Below, piece after piece: positions 5,577 through 64,000 of a stretch of DNA of 64,000 nucleotides. Under the pieces are notes generated by a model. The model was not told where the DNA came from, searched no databases, and worked only from the letters and a program-made list of their open reading frames with translations. The stretch lies in the NCBI GenBank assembly GCA_035505375.1, contig DATJQV010000025.1:1-64000 (forward strand). The letters run 5' to 3'. The DNA is from a bacterium (GTDB lineage Bacteria; Hydrothermota; Tepidihabitantia; Tepidihabitantales; Tepidihabitantaceae). Both the position numbers and the translations under genes were made by a program. Numbering within the stretch: position 1 is the first letter of the stretch; the number at the start of each line of letters is the position of its first letter.

Positions 5577-6097
5577 GCTTTTCCTCCTGCTACTTTCCGA
5601 ACGATGTCGGATTCTCGACCGTCTTGTCAGAACGCACCTCGCCCCTTCCAGCGCCTCTCACCCGGTGCAGGCGTCAAGTGTAGCCTTCTTTAGCACTTAG
5701 AGGCGGCATCTGGGTCTTTGACAGTTGTTCCTTGTGGTAACCGGACAGGCGGTCATGGTCAAGGCGGTCTGCCTGTGCGTTGCACGCAGACAGGTCAACC
5801 AGACGTCCTACAGAGTCGGGTGCAGTGGCGCCCATTGCGGCAACAGAATAGACGTCCGTTGCTGTAAGTCAAGCAGACGTCCCGCGAGGTTCTGACAGTT
5901 TGAGGACGCGAGGTCATTCCAGAAGCGGCGGAGCGGACCAGCAATGCGACAGAGTTGTAGGACGGTGCCGAAGCCGGTTCTCGGGCTTATGTGCTTGCGG
6001 CTCAGGGTCTTAAGCTTGAGGCTACCCGACTGACACCCCCACCCAGGGGATTGCCCCGCAGATAGGTTAAGGGATAGGTTAGGGTATAGCCCGAAGG
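5577..6097. other. Intergenic region upstream of 12-bp array
   Basis: About 520 bp without a supportable gene. It includes GTGCGTTGCAC (about 5773-5783, a small hairpin), three AGACGTCC words between 5811 and 5882, and a TAGGTTAAGGG / TAGGTTAGGGTA block at 6062-6088 bordering the array. A similar TAGGG block borders the array at 42.6 kb. Confidence 0.5.
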
Positions 6098-6349
6098 GTT
6101 ACCTCCACCGCAATTCCCGGATGAACCTCCACCGGAATTCGACGGGTTGGTCTACCGGTTGCCCTCCGACTTGCTCTCCGGGTTAGTCTACGTGTTGCTC
6201 CACCGGTTCCTCTCCGGTTTGGTCGGAACGTTGTGGCCCGAGTAAGTCCGCGGGTTCCTGTCCGAGTTGCTCCCGAGTAAGCTCCGGCCGTTGCTCTCCG
6301 GTTTGCTTGGAGATCTGCTTCCCGGATTGGTCCTTCCATTGCCCTACGC
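6098..6349. repeat. 12-bp periodic degenerate array no. 1 (21 units)
   Basis: 252 bp that divide into 21 units of 12 bp with approximate consensus GTTGCTCTCCGG. Single units include GTTGCCCTCCGA (6158), GTTCCTCTCCGG (6206) and GTTGCTCTCCGG (6290). One 11-bp unit (6266-6276) is followed by a 13-bp unit, which restores the phase. The units differ from one another at several positions, so this is an old or selected array rather than a fresh expansion. It lies 81 bp beyond the stop codon of the leftward caspase-like gene and does not encode a plausible protein. Confidence 0.85.
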
Positions 6350-6430
6350 GTCGGCCAGACGTGGAGAAGATCGCTCATCGGCCCGTCGCGTCCCGACCGC
6401 GGCCCGACTCGGCACAGGTTGGAGTCCGAG

Positions 6431-18919: not shown

Positions 18920-18925
18920 TCTGTG

Positions 18926-21058
18926 ATGTCCGCTAGTCGAAAACCGGCAATCGGCAATCGGCAATCCCCGGTTGTCTGGTTCCTCGTCATCTCCGGGGTC
19001 GCGTTCGCCCTCCGCATCATCCACCTGCTGCAGGCCCGACACAGCGACCCGCTCTTCTTCTCACCTCAGATGGACGCGCTCTATCACCACGAGTGGGCGC
19101 TGGCCATCGCGGCGGGCAAAGAGTTCATCGCCGACGCTTACTTCCGCGCCCCGCTCTATCCCTACCTCCTCGGCATCGTCTACAAGCTCTCCGGCGCAAA
19201 CCAGATGGCGGCGCGAATAGTACAGGCGCTAATCGGCAGCGTCGGCTGCGGGCTCGTGTACATCCTCGCGCGGCAACTGCTCAAGCCGCAGGCCTCGAGC
19301 CCCAAGCCCCAAGCCTCAAGCCGCAAGCCATTGAAGTCCGATCCTCACTCCTCCCTCCTCCCTCTTCCTTCCTCACTCACTCCGACGATCGCCGGTCTTG
19401 TCATGGCTGCCTACCCGCTCGCCATCTGGTACGACGGCGAGTTGCTTCTTGAGGGCACGCTGACTTTCCTTCTCATGCTCGGATTCGTGCTGCTTTACCG
19501 CAGTCGGGACAAGGACCGGCAGTGGTGGCTGCCGGGCATCGTGTTCGGGCTGGCCTCGATTACCCGGCCGAACGTGCTCGCGTTCCTCGCGGTGCTGCCG
19601 GTCTGGCTGTTCGTCGAAGGAAAAGGGTCCAAGGGTCCAAGGGTCCAAGGGTCCAAGTCCGAGACTAGAGCCCTGGAACCCTCGAACCCTGGAACCCGTT
19701 CTACCTGGACCCGGCTCCTGCTCGTCTGGGGTGCGGCGGCGCTGGTCATCCTGCCGGTCACGATTCGCAACTATGTCGTGAGCAGGCAGTTCGTGCCGAT
19801 TGCGTGGCAGGCGGGCACGAACTTCTACATCGGCAACTCGCCGCAGTCGGACGGCACTACTGCCATCCTCCCGGGCACGCGCGGCAGTTGGTGGGGCGGC
19901 TTCGATGACGTCAAGCGGCTGGCAGAGCAGGCTCTGGGGCGGCCGCTCAAGGGCGCGGAGATTGACCGGTACTGGCTGGGTAAGGGTCTTGAGTTCTGGC
20001 GCGAGCAGCCGGGCAAGGCGCTGGGCCTGCTTGCGCGCAAGACCTTCCTCTGGTTCGCGGGCTACGAGGTCGGCAACGAGACCGACCTGTACGCGGTGAA
20101 GCACGACTCATTCATCAACTACCTCCTCTTCAACTCCGGGTTTCTGAAGTTCCCATTCGGCATACTGCTGCCGCTGGCGCTGGCCGGGGTCTGGTTTCGG
20201 CGCAAGGAGTGGCGCCGGTTTCTGCCGCTGTACCTATTTGTCGTGGCGTACTCGCTCTCGTTCATCGTCTTCTTCGTTACCGGCCGATACCGGACGTCGG
20301 TTGTCCCGATTGTCGCGATACTGGCAGCCATAGGACTCATAGGTCTCATACGACCCATACCCGCGAAAACGGGGACTGTGCCGCGCGCCGGGCGCTCCGA
20401 GGGACTGTCCCCGTTTTCGCTCAGGTCTGGCCGCGGCGTCGCGTTCCTGATTTTTCTCGCCGCGTTCTTCCTGCTCAACGCCAACATCGCCGGGGCGGGG
20501 CGCGTGACGCGCCGGGACCAGAGCCACTTCGCGGTCGCGCTCGGACTGCACAACCAGGGCAGGGACGCCGAGGCGCTGGCGGAAGTGCGACAGGCGCTGC
20601 AGGTTGATTCGGAGACCAACGTGCTCTCGTTTGAGGCGTCGCTGCTCGAAAGGCAGGGCGACTTCGTCAACGCCGAGCGCTCGGCCCGGGCCGCGGTGCG
20701 ACTTCATCCGCAGGAATCGGATGCGTACGGTGAACTCGGCAACGTCTTCGCGCACGCCGGCGTGCTCGACTCGGCCGCGCACTACTTCGAAGTGGCGCTC
20801 CAGCACGACCCGTACTCGATGCAGGCATGGATTAACCTCGGCAACGTCAACGTGCAACGCAAGGATTTCGAGAAGGCCCGGTACTACTACGAAGGGGCGC
20901 TAAAGATACGGCCGACCTTCGCGGAGCCGATGTTCTACCTCGGCCTTTGTGACTACTACGAAGGCAAGGTCGCTGAAGCCCACGCCCGCTGGCAGGAAGT
21001 CCTCAAGCTCGACCCGTCTTTCACCAAAGCCAGACAGGCCTTGGAGCAACTGAAGTAA
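18926..21058 (+). CDS. GT39/ArnT-like membrane glycosyltransferase with C-terminal TPRs
   Basis: A 710-residue multi-pass protein. After TM1 (WFLVISGVAFALRIIHLLQA) the first loop has DALYHHEWALAIAAGKEF and YFRAPLYPYLLGIVYKLSG, the acidic/aromatic signature of GT-C (GT39/ArnT/PMT) enzymes that use polyprenyl-phosphate sugars. About ten more helices follow, then roughly four TPR units from residue 530 (LGLHNQGRDAEALAEVRQAL, YGELGNVFAHAGVLDSAAHY). Three low-complexity stretches interrupt it in frame: two short-word tracts in the first half and a palindromic element. ATG 18926 was preferred over the adjoining GTG. The acceptor is unknown; cell-envelope or protein glycosylation is likely. Confidence 0.82.
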   Translation: MSASRKPAIGNRQSPVVWFLVISGVAFALRIIHLLQARHSDPLFFSPQMDALYHHEWALAIAAGKEFIADAYFRAPLYPYLLGIVYKLSGANQMAARIVQALIGSVGCGLVYILARQLLKPQASSPKPQASSRKPLKSDPHSSLLPLPSSLTPTIAGLVMAAYPLAIWYDGELLLEGTLTFLLMLGFVLLYRSRDKDRQWWLPGIVFGLASITRPNVLAFLAVLPVWLFVEGKGSKGPRVQGSKSETRALEPSNPGTRSTWTRLLLVWGAAALVILPVTIRNYVVSRQFVPIAWQAGTNFYIGNSPQSDGTTAILPGTRGSWWGGFDDVKRLAEQALGRPLKGAEIDRYWLGKGLEFWREQPGKALGLLARKTFLWFAGYEVGNETDLYAVKHDSFINYLLFNSGFLKFPFGILLPLALAGVWFRRKEWRRFLPLYLFVVAYSLSFIVFFVTGRYRTSVVPIVAILAAIGLIGLIRPIPAKTGTVPRAGRSEGLSPFSLRSGRGVAFLIFLAAFFLLNANIAGAGRVTRRDQSHFAVALGLHNQGRDAEALAEVRQALQVDSETNVLSFEASLLERQGDFVNAERSARAAVRLHPQESDAYGELGNVFAHAGVLDSAAHYFEVALQHDPYSMQAWINLGNVNVQRKDFEKARYYYEGALKIRPTFAEPMFYLGLCDYYEGKVAEAHARWQEVLKLDPSFTKARQALEQLK
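19281..19382 (+). repeat. In-frame short-word insertion in the GT39 gene
   Basis: Tandem words of the type AAGCCCCAAGCCTCAAGCC, then TCCTCCCTCCTCCCTCTTCC. They encode a Lys/Pro/Ser-rich stretch (KPQASSPKPQASSRKP) between two membrane helices. The composition is unlike the rest of the gene but like intergenic tracts elsewhere in the window. Confidence 0.75.
19622..19700 (+). repeat. In-frame GGGTCCAA word insertion in the GT39 gene
   Basis: Four GGGTCCAA units (19625-19656) followed by an imperfect inverted CCCTGGAACCCTCGAACCC block. It encodes KGSKGPRVQGSKSETRALEP in a cytoplasmic or periplasmic loop and keeps the frame open. Confidence 0.78.
20364..20419 (+). repeat. In-frame palindromic element (CGAAAACGGGGAC family), copy 1
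   Basis: Arms CGAAAACGGGGACTGT (20364-20379) and ACTGTCCCCGTTTTCG (20404-20419) are nearly perfect inverted repeats around a GC-rich centre. The element is 56 bp and is translated as part of PIPAKTGTVPRAGRSEGLSP. Two more members lie in hypD. Confidence 0.88.
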
Positions 21059-21059
21059 G

Positions 21060-21077
21060 GGCGGGCTTCGGCCCGCC
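21060..21077 (+). terminator. Hairpin after the GT39-TPR gene
   Basis: GGCGGGC-TTCG-GCCCGCC, a 7-bp stem closed by a stable TTCG tetraloop, immediately after the TAA stop. TCTT follows, so the U-tract is poor. Confidence 0.75.
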
Positions 21078-21215
21078 TCTTGCCATGTGGTCGCCGGTGT
21101 CCGTGGCTTGGTCGTTGACTGCAAACCGGCCCAAGGCCGCCCTGAGTTGGACGAGAGCATCTCTCGCCTGCATACTGGCCATTCGGGTGCTTCACGCACC
21201 CACAAACGCGCCTCT

Positions 21216-21491
21216 GAAAGCTCCCCTGAAAGCTCGTTAGAAAGCTCGCCTCAGAGTTCGCTGGAAAGTACCTTGGAATGCTTACTCGAAAGCTTACTTC
21301 ATAGCTTCTTTCATTGCTCATCTCAATGCTTGTCACATCGCTCAGCGCATCGCTCGTCTCAAAGCTGAGCGCATCGCTTCTTACATCGCTTAGCTCAAAG
21401 CTCCGTCGAAAGCTCGCGTCAAAGCTCGGCTGAAAGCTCAACTCAAAGCTCGCTTCAAAGCTTGTTTCATGGCTTCATCGAAAGCTCCTTC
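21216..21491. repeat. 12-bp periodic degenerate array no. 2 (23 units)
   Basis: 276 bp that divide into 23 successive 12-bp units with no insertion or deletion; consensus about GAAAGCTCGCCT. Units include GAAAGCTCGTTA (21228), CATCGCTCGTCT (21348), CAAAGCTCGGCT (21420) and GAAAGCTCCTTC (21480). Positions 2 (A) and 5-7 (GCT) are nearly invariant; the last four positions vary freely. Both strands can be read as Ser-rich tetrapeptide repeats, but neither frame looks like a gene. It lies 139 bp after the GT39 terminator. Confidence 0.9.
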
Positions 21492-21899
21492 AAAGGCTAG
21501 CCCCCAGGCGACCCCTATATGCGGGAATTCCTCGACGCGACAGGGCTTAACCGACGGACTGTAATGAGGTTATGCTCGTTCGGGGAGAGTCGCTAGACTC
21601 TCGGTTCTTTTCGAGCTTTCGGTGTACCCCAAATCAATCGTCCGCGGCTCAGGAATCTCTTTGCGCGCCGCCATGATTCGCAGGTCTTCGACATAGGCGC
21701 TCAGCCTGACGGGTCGCTGAAGCCAACCCGTCTAGCCGTCGGTCCGCGGCCGCCTCTGCGGACTGCAAACTGGTAACTGGAACCTTGCGCCGAAAGCGCG
21801 CCAGGACATCTTCGACATCGCCAGGCCGAAGCCATAGCGACCCGCACAGAACTATCGCCTACATCTCGCCGCGGCCCGGCGGTTTCGGTACGCCGCGCC
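21492..21899. other. Gene-free stretch between array no. 2 and a gene remnant
   Basis: About 400 bp with no supported gene, RNA or repeat. The segment GCAAACTGGTAACTGG near 21764 resembles the short-word tracts. The sequence may be decayed coding DNA, given the methylase fragment that follows. Confidence 0.4.
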
Positions 21900-21927
21900 T
21901 TGACCTGACGTCCTTCGGGTATATCCT
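21900..21927 (+). promoter_or_regulatory. Promoter retained by the methylase remnant
   Basis: TTGACC (21900-21905), 16-bp spacer, TATCCT (21922-21927); the ATG at 21936 follows after 8 bp. Same geometry as the promoters of intact leaderless genes here. Confidence 0.6.
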
Positions 21928-21935
21928 TCTCAACC

Positions 21936-22170
21936 ATGGGAATGCCCGCGCCCGACGCCGTCAAACGTTTGGTCGACCGCTTCGACCCGAACCGCAAGGT
22001 CTTCCTCTCCGGTGACTGCGAGGAGGAGCAACTCCGCCTTGAGTTCCTCAACCCCTTCTTCTCCTCGCTCGGCCCGAGACTTTGACAATGCCCCCGCCTC
22101 GGAATGCAGGAGTGGCCTGATCCCAAGAGTAGCGAGAGGCTGGCCGGACGCAGTCGGCCCAAGTATTTGA
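21936..22170 (+). pseudogene. Remnant of a type I/IIG-like N6-adenine DNA methylase
   Basis: The first 49 codons encode MGMPAPDAVKRLVDRFDPNR then KVFLSGDCEEEQLRLEFLNP and FFSSLG. This matches the N-terminus of large restriction-modification methylases, which normally run on as LGWDVDN and continue for hundreds of residues. Here a stop appears at 22083. In the +1 frame the expected continuation is visible as RDFDNAPA, followed by unrelated sequence and another stop at 22168. So a frameshift and a large deletion have destroyed the gene while its promoter survives. Family identification is from memory of the motif. Confidence 0.65.
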
Positions 22171-22351
22171 TGACAGCAGTGAACCGCTCTCTTGGTCGGT
22201 ATGTGCTCGACTTCGACTCCCTGACGATCGCCACCCCTGAGTCATGCCGGTCGCCAAGTCGCCGGACAACATTACATTGTACAATCGTAAGTCCATATCA
22301 GATTGAATGTTAGAGTGATGTAATCGGTGCGGCGGCTGTCGCACGTGCTGC

Positions 22352-22380
22352 TTGACAGGCAACTTGGTGGGGTATATCAT
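22352..22380 (+). promoter_or_regulatory. Promoter of the kinase-sigma54 activator gene (leaderless)
   Basis: TTGACA (22352-22357), 17-bp spacer, TATCAT (22375-22380). The ATG at 22386 is 5 bp after the -10 box, leaving no room for a ribosome-binding site. Confidence 0.72.
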
Positions 22381-22385
22381 AGTTT

Positions 22386-32285: not shown

Positions 32286-32290
32286 GGCTT

Positions 32291-32590
32291 TCTCAGACGC
32301 ACCGCAAGTCATCGTCGCAGTCGCTTCGGGAGTGCCTCCGCAAACCGCATTCTCAATCCAGCCGGAAGTCGCCGCCACAATCCTTCTGCGACTGACCTTC
32401 CCAGTCCACTCGCGAATCTCCGCAGGAATCCTCCTGTACGTGCCTTCGCAAGTCGCTCTGCGATTGGCCTTGGCCGTGCCCGCCAGAATCGCCGTGCAAC
32501 TCGCGTCCCGAGAGGCCTTCCGAACCACCCCCCGAACCGTTCCCGGAACGGTTCCCAAGGCGACACCCAGAGCGACCGTCTACGCGACCA
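32291..32590. repeat. 12-bp periodic degenerate array no. 3 (25 units)
   Basis: 300 bp that divide into 25 units of 12 bp without phase breaks; consensus about CGCAAGTCGCCT. Units include CGCAAGTCATCG (32303), CGGAAGTCGCCG (32363), CGCAAGTCGCTC (32447) and CCAGAATCGCCG (32483). The array begins 5 bp after the mvhD stop codon, so it would form the 3' end of the etf-hdr transcript. The last two or three units are the most diverged. Confidence 0.87.
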
Positions 32591-32756
32591 ATCTGACGTC
32601 TAACGGCTTACTTGTCAGTTACTTAGGCCGTCTGACCGTGGACTAACCACACCCGGAAACGCCAACCGGTGCCTTCCACCGGATTCAACGGTCAGAAACT
32701 TACGCTGAAAGCGGTCGGGGTTGTCAGCCGGAGGCTTCTGCTCTGCGTCATTCCGC

Positions 32757-42296: not shown

Positions 42297-42642
42297 GGAC
42301 TAGATGATACCCGCACCCCGCGTCCCGCGCAACAGCGCGCGAACTTACCGGAAACCGACATGGACACCACGAACCAGGTGCATGAAACGCATCTTCGAGT
42401 TCTATCTCGGCCCGCTTCGTGGTCTGCGTGTCTTCGTGAGTGCATGGTGTGTCTCATCGTATCCTCCCTGTTGTCGGGAGGTCCCTCCAGCAAGACGAGA
42501 CTCTATCTGTGTCCATCCGTGTTTATCCGTGGCTACTCTCTTCGTGGCTGGATTCCGGCTCCGTCTCTTGGCGTCCTTGGCGGCTTATCTGCGACCATTC
42601 GGGGGTTTGAACCGAACCGCGGCGCGCGTCGGGGCTCTCCTC
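42297..42642. other. Gap between M23 gene and array no. 4
   Basis: About 345 bp. Holds the M23 promoter region and a phrase tract, TCTGTGTCCATCCGTG then TTTATCCGTGGC (42507-42535), of the kind seen elsewhere. No gene supported. Confidence 0.4.
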
Positions 42643-42918
42643 GTAGCTCTCCAAGGAACTCCGCTCGTTGGTTAGAGGGTTACCCGCAGAGTAATCCGGG
42701 AAGGAACTCTGACGGGAAAGCCGACTGTAACTCGGCAAGGAACCCGGGATTGAACCCGACCTGTTACCCGGCAATGAACCGGACGAGGAACTCTACTCGT
42801 TGCCCGCGAAGTAGCGGTAGACGTAGCTGTGGAAGTTGCCGGTGAAGTAACCCGCGTCGTTCCTCGGGAAGTTGCTCCGGTCGTTACCTCGGAAGCTATG
42901 TGCGGAGCTACGGGGGGA
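42643..42918. repeat. 12-bp periodic degenerate array no. 4 (23 units)
   Basis: 276 bp in 23 uninterrupted 12-bp units; consensus about GTTACCCGGGAA. Units include GTAATCCGGGAA (42691), GTTACCCGGCAA (42763), GTTCCTCGGGAA (42859) and GTTACCTCGGAA (42883). Two unit types, ending in -GAA or in -GAC/-GTC, tend to alternate. GGGTTAGGGTATTGGG-type words follow it (about 42947-42965) as they border array no. 1. Confidence 0.87.
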
Positions 42919-43553
42919 GCATAGGAGGGGTTGGGAAGGGAATAGGGGTTAGGGTATTGGGAATAGGGAAGTTAGGACAGGAATTCGCGGTTGGAGGAGT
43001 GTGTACTATATTACACAAACAGGATCTGGATTGAGCGATGAAAATGCTGCTCTCCACCCGTGGCTGAAGGACTCGCGGCGAACTCAGACTTCCCCGCATC
43101 CGAGCCCGGCTGACGCAAGGCGCGTGCCGGCCCGCCAGTTCGCCGACTTGGCCCTCGGCGGCCTCGACCGCCGGCTCAGACGCGCTTAGCCGGCTTCGGT
43201 TCGGCAATTCTGCATTCTGGTTTCTGATCTCTGATTTCTGGATTATCTGAAGTCCGCCGCGCTGTGTTCTCGCGCGGAGCCGTCCGTTTCCGACTACTGC
43301 AAGCTGCCAACTGAGAACTGGTTACTCGCGTCAGTGTACCGCCGGCCTCGACCGCCAACAGCACCTCGTCCGGCGCTCGCACCAAGCTCTGCAACGGCAC
43401 CAGCTTCGAGTGCCGCAACAGCGATCGCTCCAGTTCCTGCAGCAGGTCAAACAACAGCCGCCGTCCCCGCCCGCGTACCGACACCCGCTCTGGGCCTGAG
43501 CCAAGCCAGCAACCGTCTCAGCCCTCATACAGCCGTTCCTGAACTTTTGTCGC
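42919..43553. other. Gap before the CRISPR-cas operon
   Basis: About 630 bp. Contains the near-palindrome GTGTACTATATTACAC (43001-43016), and TCTGATTTCTGG-type words (43207-43244, reverse of the CAGAAACCAGAA family). On the minus strand at about 43484-43330 there is a short helix-like frame (LLFDLLQELERSLLRHSKLV) that could be a gene remnant but has no family match I recognise. No intact gene supported. Confidence 0.45.
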
Positions 43554-53325: not shown

Positions 53326-53383
53326 TGAATGTCGGGGCACGACTTCGACATTCGTCCTTCGCACTTCGCACTTTTACATAAGG

Positions 53384-53552
53384 CTCCCTGCTGTGTTCGT
53401 GATAGTTGGCTAAGTCTTGAGCCAACACCCGTGAAGTGGGCGCTCGATAGCGCCGTGGACTGCCACTCCTCGTTGAGCGGCGCGAAGCGGCACTGAGGCG
53501 CCCCGGTTTACGACGGGTTCATAGACTGGTCACTACACGGCACCGCGGGGTT
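53384..53552 (+). ncRNA. ssrS: Probable 6S RNA
   Basis: About 168 nt between zapA and rny, a position characteristic of 6S RNA. The ends pair as the 6S closing stem: CCCTGCTGTGTTCGTGATAG at the 5' side with CTACACGGCACCGCGGGG at the 3' side. Inside are GTTGGCTAAGTCTTGAGCCA, an asymmetric central region and GGCGCCCCGGTTTACGACGG. TTTTGTTTT follows directly as a terminator tail. TACATA (53375-53380) is a candidate -10 box. 6S RNA sequesters the housekeeping RNA polymerase in stationary phase. Confidence 0.78.
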
Positions 53553-53572
53553 TTGTTTTGTTTGGAGGAATC

Positions 53573-62347: not shown

Positions 62348-64000
62348 ATGCCATCTTTCTGCGTTCGACGTTCTTTGGTCCGAACCATCTCCTCACGCAT
62401 CTGGGCCGTACGACCCGTTGTCGTATCGTTGGCCGTTTGCTGCTGCCTGTCGGCGGTCAGCGGACAGTTGCTTGAAAAGACCATCTACCTGCCGGACTCG
62501 CTAGGCGGGCTGCCGAATCCGCAGTGCCTGACGTGTAATTCGGCCAACAACACCGTCTATGTCGGCGGCGAGTATGGCGATTGCGTGATCGCGATTGACG
62601 GGGCCACAAATCAAAGGATTGCACGGATTCCAGCCGGGTCGAATGTGGTGGCTCTCTGCTACAACCCGACCAACAACAAGGTCTATGCCGCCAACTGCAA
62701 CAGCAACAACGTGACCGTGATAGACGGTGCGACCAATAGGGTCATCACGACGGTGACTGCAGGCAGCGGGCCCCGTGCCCTCTGCTACAACCCGACCAAC
62801 AACAAGGTCTACTGCGCGGACTCGGGCGCCAACAACGTGACCGTGATAGACGGTGCGACCAATGGGGTCATCGCAACCGTGACCGCTGGTGGCGAGCCCT
62901 GTGCGCTCTGCTACAACCCGACCAACAACAAAGCTTACTGCGCGAACTACGCCAGCGCCAGCGTGACCGTGATAGACGGCGCGACCGACAGCGTCATTGC
63001 CACCGTGACGGCAGGTGAAAATCCTCAGGCCTTCTGCTACAACGCGACCAACAACAAGGTTTACTGCGCGAACTGCGGCAGCAACAACGTGACCGTGATG
63101 GATGGCCGGACCGACAGCGTCATTGCTACCGTGACGGCAGGTGAGAGTCCTCAGGCCCTGTGCCATAACCCGACCAATAACAAGGTCTACTGCGCAAACT
63201 ACCTGTCCTATGACGTGACCGTGATAGACGGCGAGACCGACAACGTCATCGCCACCGTGAATGACATCAGCGAACCTCGTGCTCTGTGTTACAGCCCGAC
63301 CGCCAATAGGGTCTACTGCGCAGACCATGGCGGCGGCGATGTCACCGTGATCAACGGCGCGACCGACGGCGTCATCACCGACGTGACCGTTGAGTACACC
63401 CCTTACGCCCTCTGCTACAACCCGACCAGCAACAAGGTCTACTGCGCGAACAACTACGCCCGCAGCGTGAGTGTGATTGACGGTGCGTCCAACGGGGTCG
63501 TTGCCACCGTGGTCGTGGCGGCCTGCCCTTTTGCCCTTTGCCACAACTCGTCCGACAACAAGATCTACTGCGTGGGCTCCAGGATTGACGGCCACGTGGT
63601 GGCGGTGATAGACGAGGCGACCAACAGGGTTGTCGACACCGTGGCCGGGTGTGATGGCGCCGGTGCCTTCTGCTACAACCCGACGAACAACAAGATCTAC
63701 GACGCGAATGGGATCGGCGCCAGCGTCGCCGTGATCGACGGTGCGACCGACAGCGTCATCGCCACGGTGACTACAGACACCTTCCCCGATGCCTTCTGTT
63801 ATGATCCGACCAACAACAACATCTACTGTGCTGACCTGGGTAGTGGCGACGTGACAGTAATCGACGGCGCGAGCGACAGCGTCATCGCCACGGTGGCCGC
63901 CGGCTACGCCCCTTGCGCCCTCTGCCACAATCCAACCGACAACAAGATCTACTGCGCGAACGGCAGCGACAGTGTTGTCGTGATAGACGGCGCGACGAAC
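62348..64000 (+). CDS. Secreted cysteine-rich YVTN beta-propeller protein (C-terminus off the window)
   Basis: The frame is open from ATG 62348 to the window edge (551 codons). The signal peptide runs to about residue 40 (VVVSLAVCCCLSAVSGQ). About 13 repeats of roughly 42 residues follow, each of the form ALCYNPTNNKVYCANC, then NNVTVIDGATNRVIATVTAG. Each blade has one Cys in the CYNP segment and most have a second in YCAN or YCAD. Such YVTN repeats form beta-propellers found in surface-layer and secreted proteins. A C-terminal sorting domain is expected outside the window. The complementary strand is also open over 1.4 kb, which is a by-product of the repeats. Confidence 0.9.
   Translation, partial: MPSFCVRRSLVRTISSRIWAVRPVVVSLAVCCCLSAVSGQLLEKTIYLPDSLGGLPNPQCLTCNSANNTVYVGGEYGDCVIAIDGATNQRIARIPAGSNVVALCYNPTNNKVYAANCNSNNVTVIDGATNRVITTVTAGSGPRALCYNPTNNKVYCADSGANNVTVIDGATNGVIATVTAGGEPCALCYNPTNNKAYCANYASASVTVIDGATDSVIATVTAGENPQAFCYNATNNKVYCANCGSNNVTVMDGRTDSVIATVTAGESPQALCHNPTNNKVYCANYLSYDVTVIDGETDNVIATVNDISEPRALCYSPTANRVYCADHGGGDVTVINGATDGVITDVTVEYTPYALCYNPTSNKVYCANNYARSVSVIDGASNGVVATVVVAACPFALCHNSSDNKIYCVGSRIDGHVVAVIDEATNRVVDTVAGCDGAGAFCYNPTNNKIYDANGIGASVAVIDGATDSVIATVTTDTFPDAFCYDPTNNNIYCADLGSGDVTVIDGASDSVIATVAAGYAPCALCHNPTDNKIYCANGSDSVVVIDGATN

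Follow-up and report, generated by a model that had tools for sequence, protein, structure and literature searches.

Direct repeats of 12 bp are known from tubC centromeres. Subterminal 12-bp repeats are also known from the eukaryotic, MITE-like CACTA/Spm elements, which are dispersed and non-autonomous and carry directly repeated protein sites. As to how such repeats can work, PMC5016525 describes parC/ParR and tubC/TubR as systems in which short direct repeats are held in a helical or filamentous nucleoprotein complex, with one ParR dimer per repeat. Among the dispersed repeats of bacteria, REP/BIME sequences are presented in PMC2817692 as short, intergenic, non-coding and species-specific, with more than 100 copies per genome, and are proposed there to be non-autonomous mobile DNA. 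At the transcript level, Rho sites correspond, in PMC6407284, to RNA richer in C than in G with cytosines every 11-13 nt. Here, we compare with these systems an array of 12-bp repeats located in the window, i.e., the whole stretch of 64,000 nucleotides, from an uncultured bacterium, that was analysed.

Structure of the array and of its copies

The array lies at 21216-21491, and its existence, as well as that of the class to which it belongs, is solidly established. The array and the conserved parts around it are the following:

21185 to 21201, + strand: short GC-rich inverted repeat, GGGTGC...GCACCC, just 5' of the array (by eye)
21216 to 21491, + strand: 12-bp array of 23 direct units, family A, consensus SAWNGCTYNNYN
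21507 to 21524, + strand: conserved block GGCGACCCCTATATGCGG, at the junction of the array and the 3' module
21549 to 21572, + strand: motif AAC-N18-TTA in the 3' module, with a half-site spacing of 21 bp, common to arrays of unrelated text
21602 to 21611, + strand: CRGTTCTTTT, third of the conserved blocks in the 3' module, with no change in C and GTTCT among all 25 copies
21612 to 21640, + strand: right end of the shared element, where it fades out in most copies

The 23 units of 12 bp announced by the sequence-only reading were recovered without gaps, and its claim that no indel occurs over 276 bp was borne out. Identity within the array was 0.63 at lag 12 and 0.22-0.23 at lags 10, 11 and 13. 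Its period-12 score reached 0.471, the maximum in 20 Markov copies of the window being 0.097. A at position 2 and G at position 5 were invariant in all 23 units; position 6 was C in 21, position 7 was T in 22 and position 11 was a pyrimidine in 22 of them. When delimited by profile, the array extended from 21194 to 21509 (about 26 units) and was followed by a conserved module up to about 21640.

The possibility that positions 1-8 are no better conserved than positions 9-12, which the sequence-only reading had raised against its own description, was also checked. Pairwise identity between units was 0.708 at positions 1-8 and 0.334 at positions 9-12, for 0.255 from composition alone. Because the first eight positions exceed the last four, the observation of a kept core followed by a loose tail stands. 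The palindrome AGCT, expected in many units, was counted by eye in the core of 13 of the 23. The unit types, said to switch in blocks, did so weakly, neighbours being 0.633 identical vs 0.584 in shuffled order (P = 0.021).

When 21200-21500 was searched against the own genome, 3.62 Mb in 90 contigs, 30 matches were returned, 26 of which (L009-L034, window included) span most of the query, the other 4 being short. The 25 family A copies besides that of the window are colinear with it and 75-88% identical to it. Across copies, same-numbered units were 0.82 identical, vs 0.59 for neighbouring units within one copy and 0.56 for distant units. From this comparison, local tandem growth was rejected, and the suggestion that unit types spread locally by conversion had to be given up: the whole array has been block-copied to about 26 places. 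The tail was likewise said to vary almost without limit. This is true between units, but the same unit is 0.71 identical at positions 9-12 between copies; hence, the array is inherited whole. Family A matches were present in 6 of 6 genomes of the genus and in 0 of 55 other genomes of the class, and no match to the element was found in phage and plasmid records.

The part shared by the 26 aligned copies, from which L035 and L036 were excluded for their short match, runs from about 21217 to about 21640. Unit statistics were computed on 19 copies, L014, L027, L028 and L031-L034 being dropped because the array is cut, offset, one unit longer or different in text in its last units. Over the array region 21228-21491, substitutions from the consensus amounted to 572 in these 19 of the 26 copies, and the only indel in the 26 copies was one whole 12-bp unit, in L028. 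We know of no neutral bacterial process that would yield so few indels.

In the window, the element is flanked by genes for a TPR protein and a kinase/sigma-54 regulator. Four homologues of the upstream gene, including one in the own genome, are followed by further sequence but by no array, and a fifth stops at its contig end. A strict orthologous empty site was sought and none was found, the result being just the absence of an array behind these four homologous genes. In eight own-genome copies (L012, L015, L016, L019, L022, L025, L032, L034), a second 12-bp array of other text trails the start of the A element by about 0.6-1.0 kb, with further shared downstream sequence up to about 650 bp; in several copies, this second array reads [T/P]-A-x-x in one frame. 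The fragment 21937-22080, a gene start, is dispersed in many copies over the genus and is presumably the start of a restriction-enzyme-like gene; no Pfam match was obtained with a 48-residue piece of it. It was seen after 4 of the 28 copies inspected, and was rejected as a part of the element and judged to be a fragment dispersed separately. On the other side, ORF 18923-21058, an open coding frame whose homologues align on both sides of about 20346-20456 and not across it, contains at 20361-20427 a dispersed REP-like inverted pair, AACGGGGACTGT...ACTGTCCCCGTTTT. Farther in the window, a 6S RNA (Rfam) was found at 53382-53555 with 56.8 bits vs a gathering score of 46.4, and coding-like tandem repeats of 126 bp occupy 62650-64000, reaching the window end.

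A genome-wide class with a common pitch

Periodic DNA was then counted in an array-blind sample of 464 kb, made of 20 stretches of 20 kb (L099-L118) and the window, with a coding-neutral score above 0.12. It held 26 arrays of period 12 and none of period 9, 10, 11, 13 or 15; the other periods gave 10 (period 8), 4 (period 16), 2 (period 14), 2 (period 18) and 1 (period 21). The ten stretches with 8-bp periodicity form a smaller second class of periodic DNA. Extrapolation from the same sample leads to about 200 period-12 arrays per genome. The window itself contains four arrays, with extents of 6042-6351, 21194-21509, 32286-32589 and 42612-42919, and those other than family A are listed below:

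6042 to 6351, no strand assigned: periodic 12-bp array of other text
32286 to 32625, + strand: 12-bp array of family B text, with a GGCGA junction and AAC-N18-TTA at 32602-32625
42612 to 42919, no strand assigned: periodic 12-bp array of other text

When arrays of at least 200 bp were gathered from all genomes, the 52 obtained fell into 15 text clusters with a median length of 304 bp (IQR 281-327), and tandem pairs were frequent. Within the genus, G003 had 16 arrays in 240 kb, G001 6 in 110 kb and G004 2 in 40 kb, most contigs of these three genomes having been picked for A matches or upstream-gene homologues. Other genera of the same family also carried arrays (G007, 4 in 320 kb; G008, 1 in 20 kb; G015, 2 in 16.5 kb), with none in the 60 kb of G006 and the 40 kb of G012. 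Beyond the family, 15 genomes sampled over about 600 kb held no array save one in G018, which adjoins a Y1 transposase fragment; the samples of G051 and G074, all N, are outside this count. Because the array text changes, sequence homology searches would miss most of these arrays, which the period score detects. No description of such arrays was found among the open-licence PMC papers listed, and this large set of arrays, with the same 12-base spacing and differing letters, is apparently undescribed.

Functionless satellite-like repeats, built by tandem slippage and dispersed by occasional copying, would account for the very many text families, whose function is not known. However, slippage should add or remove units and single bases, and the 26 family A copies display a single 12-bp event. 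The lengths held near 304 bp across the 15 clusters and the absence of periods 9-11, 13 and 15 are no better explained, and the common downstream motif described below would be unexpected. Besides, the data suggest that pitch, length and motif are kept over genus-level divergence. For these reasons, we regard a satellite origin as unlikely.

The downstream module and the tests for coding and RNA roles

The 3' module is approximately gap-free over its first 114 or so columns in 25 copies, with a mean column identity of 73%. The block CCCCAGGCGACCCCTATATGCGG was found, with at most 3 mismatches, in 25 own-genome copies, for 0 in the backward-read control, and AAN-N18-TTA was present in 25 of the 25 A copies that have the module. 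On the 5' side, hairpins resembling that of 21185-21201 occur at the same place in some copies only. The sequence TCCCCCGGCGACCCCTATATGCGGTTTCC, similar to the junction block of family A, was seen without an array at position 11013 of L324 (contig IMGVR_UViG_3300036760_000240 of the viral collection IMG/VR). The presence of the 17-base block in two IMG/VR contigs without an array was regarded as chance.

The spaced motif of the module recurs next to arrays of unrelated text. When x in AAC-Nx-TTA was varied from 8 to 30 over the regions flanking 50 non-A arrays, x = 18 accounted for 11 occurrences and no other value for more than 3. The background expectation was 0.66, giving a Poisson P of about 1e-10 if the cases are independent, which they are not, about 6 of the 11 being family B or B-like. 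The remaining cases belong to families C and E, to a G003 array with an A-type module and to arrays of G008 and G015. In 39 of the 50 non-A arrays, including the CCGGTTGCTCTC-like arrays of the window, the strict motif was absent from the searched flank. The looser form [T/C]AAN-N18-TTA was present in 17 of 19 readable family B junctions, and AAG-N18-TTC is common to two G007 arrays that differ in text (by eye). In family B (e.g., L104, L162-L166, L170), the array ends with the palindrome GAACCGTTCCCGGAACGGTTC, and a REP-like hairpin, AAATGGGTAGCGTCCCCATTT, is often located about 17-19 bp past AAC-N18-TTA.

The geometry of the motif was also considered. The starts of AAC and TTA are 21 bp apart, i.e., two turns of B-DNA. 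In the 19 B junctions, the distance from GCGA to AA was 40 (11 junctions), 42 (5) or 50 (1), 2 being without motif; the corresponding spacing was 41 in family A and about 20 in three further B-like arrays. These steps of about 10 bp, close to one helical turn, suit double-stranded DNA, in a pattern that was recognised post hoc and comprises few distance classes.

The core sites of integron attC are RYYYAAC ... GTTRRRY, with paired R and L boxes flanking a stem of about 55 nt or longer. The outer letters of AAC-N18-TTA resemble them, chiefly in family B (GCCTAAC...TTAGGC), and attC-type recombination sites could therefore be envisaged. Yet the 18 bases between AAC and TTA are too short for L boxes and a stem, and neither pairing nor covariation supports one. 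Accordingly, this identification appears extremely improbable.

Then, the array was examined for coding potential. Six-frame pN/pS (0.56-0.90) and stop nulls did not yield one open frame under purifying selection, stops being present in every frame in the 19 copies. The apparent protection of + frame 0, which has the fewest stops on the + strand, with 5 stops vs 17.7 for a null drawing any site of the same base, was rejected with a null keeping both base and unit position; because the latter expects 5.0, no protection is claimed. With the same null, - frame 2 had 7 stops vs 7.6 expected, and + frame 2 had 29 vs 47.4, hence fewer, in a frame where the consensus itself has two stops. With unit position taken into account, none of the reading frames of the array shows convincing protection. 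Genes for tetrapeptide-repeat proteins, either decayed or cryptic, with four codons per 12 bp, would fit a period that divides by 3, the [K/I]-A-x-x reading in parts of one + frame, the two frames with few stops and the deficit in + frame 2. Against them stand the stops found in every frame and in the + frame 2 consensus, the match to or excess over the null in the remaining frames and a shared start codon that was not seen. We consider such genes very improbable here.

A conserved RNA structure was not apparent either. For the 3' module, compared in 25 copies, RNAalifold proposed 6 pairs with zero covariation, and the TAAC/GTTA stem showed no two-sided change and a covariation score not above that of shuffles. 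Of 8 single strands folded, 7 had z-scores that were positive or close to 0 and one, L015, had -2.4, and Rfam covariance models gave no match to 21059-22385 up to E = 1.

A long, Rho-utilisation-like RNA stretch, with cytosines every 12 nt and ending untranslated transcription, would be in line with the C/G ratio, which is above 1 in 20 of the 21 arrays oriented by AAC-N18-TTA, from about six text families; the ratio is 0.60 in one oriented array. However, the arrays are not co-directional with the upstream genes, which ran with the element in 16, against it in 8 and were not called in 2 for family A (n = 26), the figures for family B being 6, 8 and 3 (n = 17). These orientations give no sign of a transcript-bound role. 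Moreover, a Rho site requires about 78 nt, vs 300 here, and its tolerance of 11-13 nt leaves the lack of indels unexplained. A role in Rho-dependent termination thus seems quite improbable to us.

A possible DNA platform and its relation to described systems

In family A, a rigid array with some 23-25 direct units of 12 bp precedes a module of about 120 bp with GGCGACCCCTATATGCGG, AAC-N18-TTA and CRGTTCTTTT. The array is thus part of one copy of a non-coding, intergenic, dispersed element of about 430 bp, which we tentatively propose, at a probability somewhat short of even, to be mobile-like and to act as a DNA platform. Its mechanism is inferred. The element would act as double-stranded DNA, on which a small protein, as a protomer or a dimer per 12-bp unit, would polymerise cooperatively along about 25 sites, so that pitch and unit number would be held and most letters left free to drift. 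A dimeric partner or a recombinase-like protein may sit at the half-sites of AAC-N18-TTA, two helical turns apart. The copies would behave as mobile DNA of a non-autonomous kind, their array text drifting or being swapped at constant pitch.

A platform of this kind would account for the fixed pitch and length, the tolerance in text, the indifference to transcription and the common spaced motif. Indeed, the strict phase, the absence of a coding signal, the absence of a conserved RNA structure in the 3' module, and AAC-N18-TTA are best accommodated by a putative protein that binds once every 12 bp. Several findings were counted against the platform: its 12-bp pitch is out of register with B-DNA, the strict motif is missing from the searched flank in 39 of 50 non-A arrays, the search for a strict empty site gave none, and + frame 2 has a stop deficit.

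A composite REP-like element spread by the RAYT (Y1/HUH) transposases of the genome was considered as another source of dispersal. All 6 genomes of the genus, as well as G007, have Y1_Tnp genes, with 5 Y1_Tnp matches in G000, and an array peak was found in the flanks (at most about 2 kb per side) of 15 of 40 Y1 loci. Those flanks gave 17 peaks in 150 kb vs 26 in the 464-kb array-blind sample, and a REP-like hairpin follows the motif directly in many B copies. However, the RAYT units bear REP-like ends of their own, and one of them interrupts an A array at about unit 20 in G003 (L238, G003:C14), which points to the arrays being neighbours or targets rather than RAYT ends. In addition, no REP was seen by eye at the family A ends, and G008 has an array and no Y1 match (G015 was outside that search). 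Spread by RAYT is thus unlikely as well.

If the platform reading is true, selection keeps pitch and length, not sequence, which is rare in non-coding bacterial DNA, and the arrays would point, at about 200 sites per chromosome, to a recombination system or DNA-binding filament of an unknown kind. The natural arrays of many texts would then be a resource for finding the protein. On a broader view, which we hold as possible and rather doubtful, each genome would contain about 200 fixed-length, 12-bp-phased platforms with exchangeable letters, serving as scattered centromere-like or nucleoid-organising sites for an undescribed filament-forming DNA-binding protein, in a system typical of one family of candidate division WOR-3, to which the hosts belong.

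In comparison with described systems, the arrays resemble MITE-like and CACTA/Spm elements in dispersal and direct repeats, but no terminal inverted repeats were seen in the element. The likeness to Rho-utilisation sites, as given in PMC6407284, resides in the 11-13 nt spacing of cytosines and the excess of C over G, whereas the arrays differ in length, strict phase and lack of orientation to genes. With REP/BIME, the element shares a dispersed, intergenic, non-coding nature, a high copy number (about 26 A copies and about 200 arrays per genome) and a resident RAYT gene; REPs are short palindromes, whereas here a rigid direct array of about 300 bp is joined to a spaced motif. Iteron centromeres (parC, tubC) are alike in their short direct repeats and strict phase and may offer by analogy the nearest described workings. 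Nevertheless, they occur once per plasmid with few repeats, unlike the approximately 200 chromosomal arrays of about 25 repeats and diverse texts described here.
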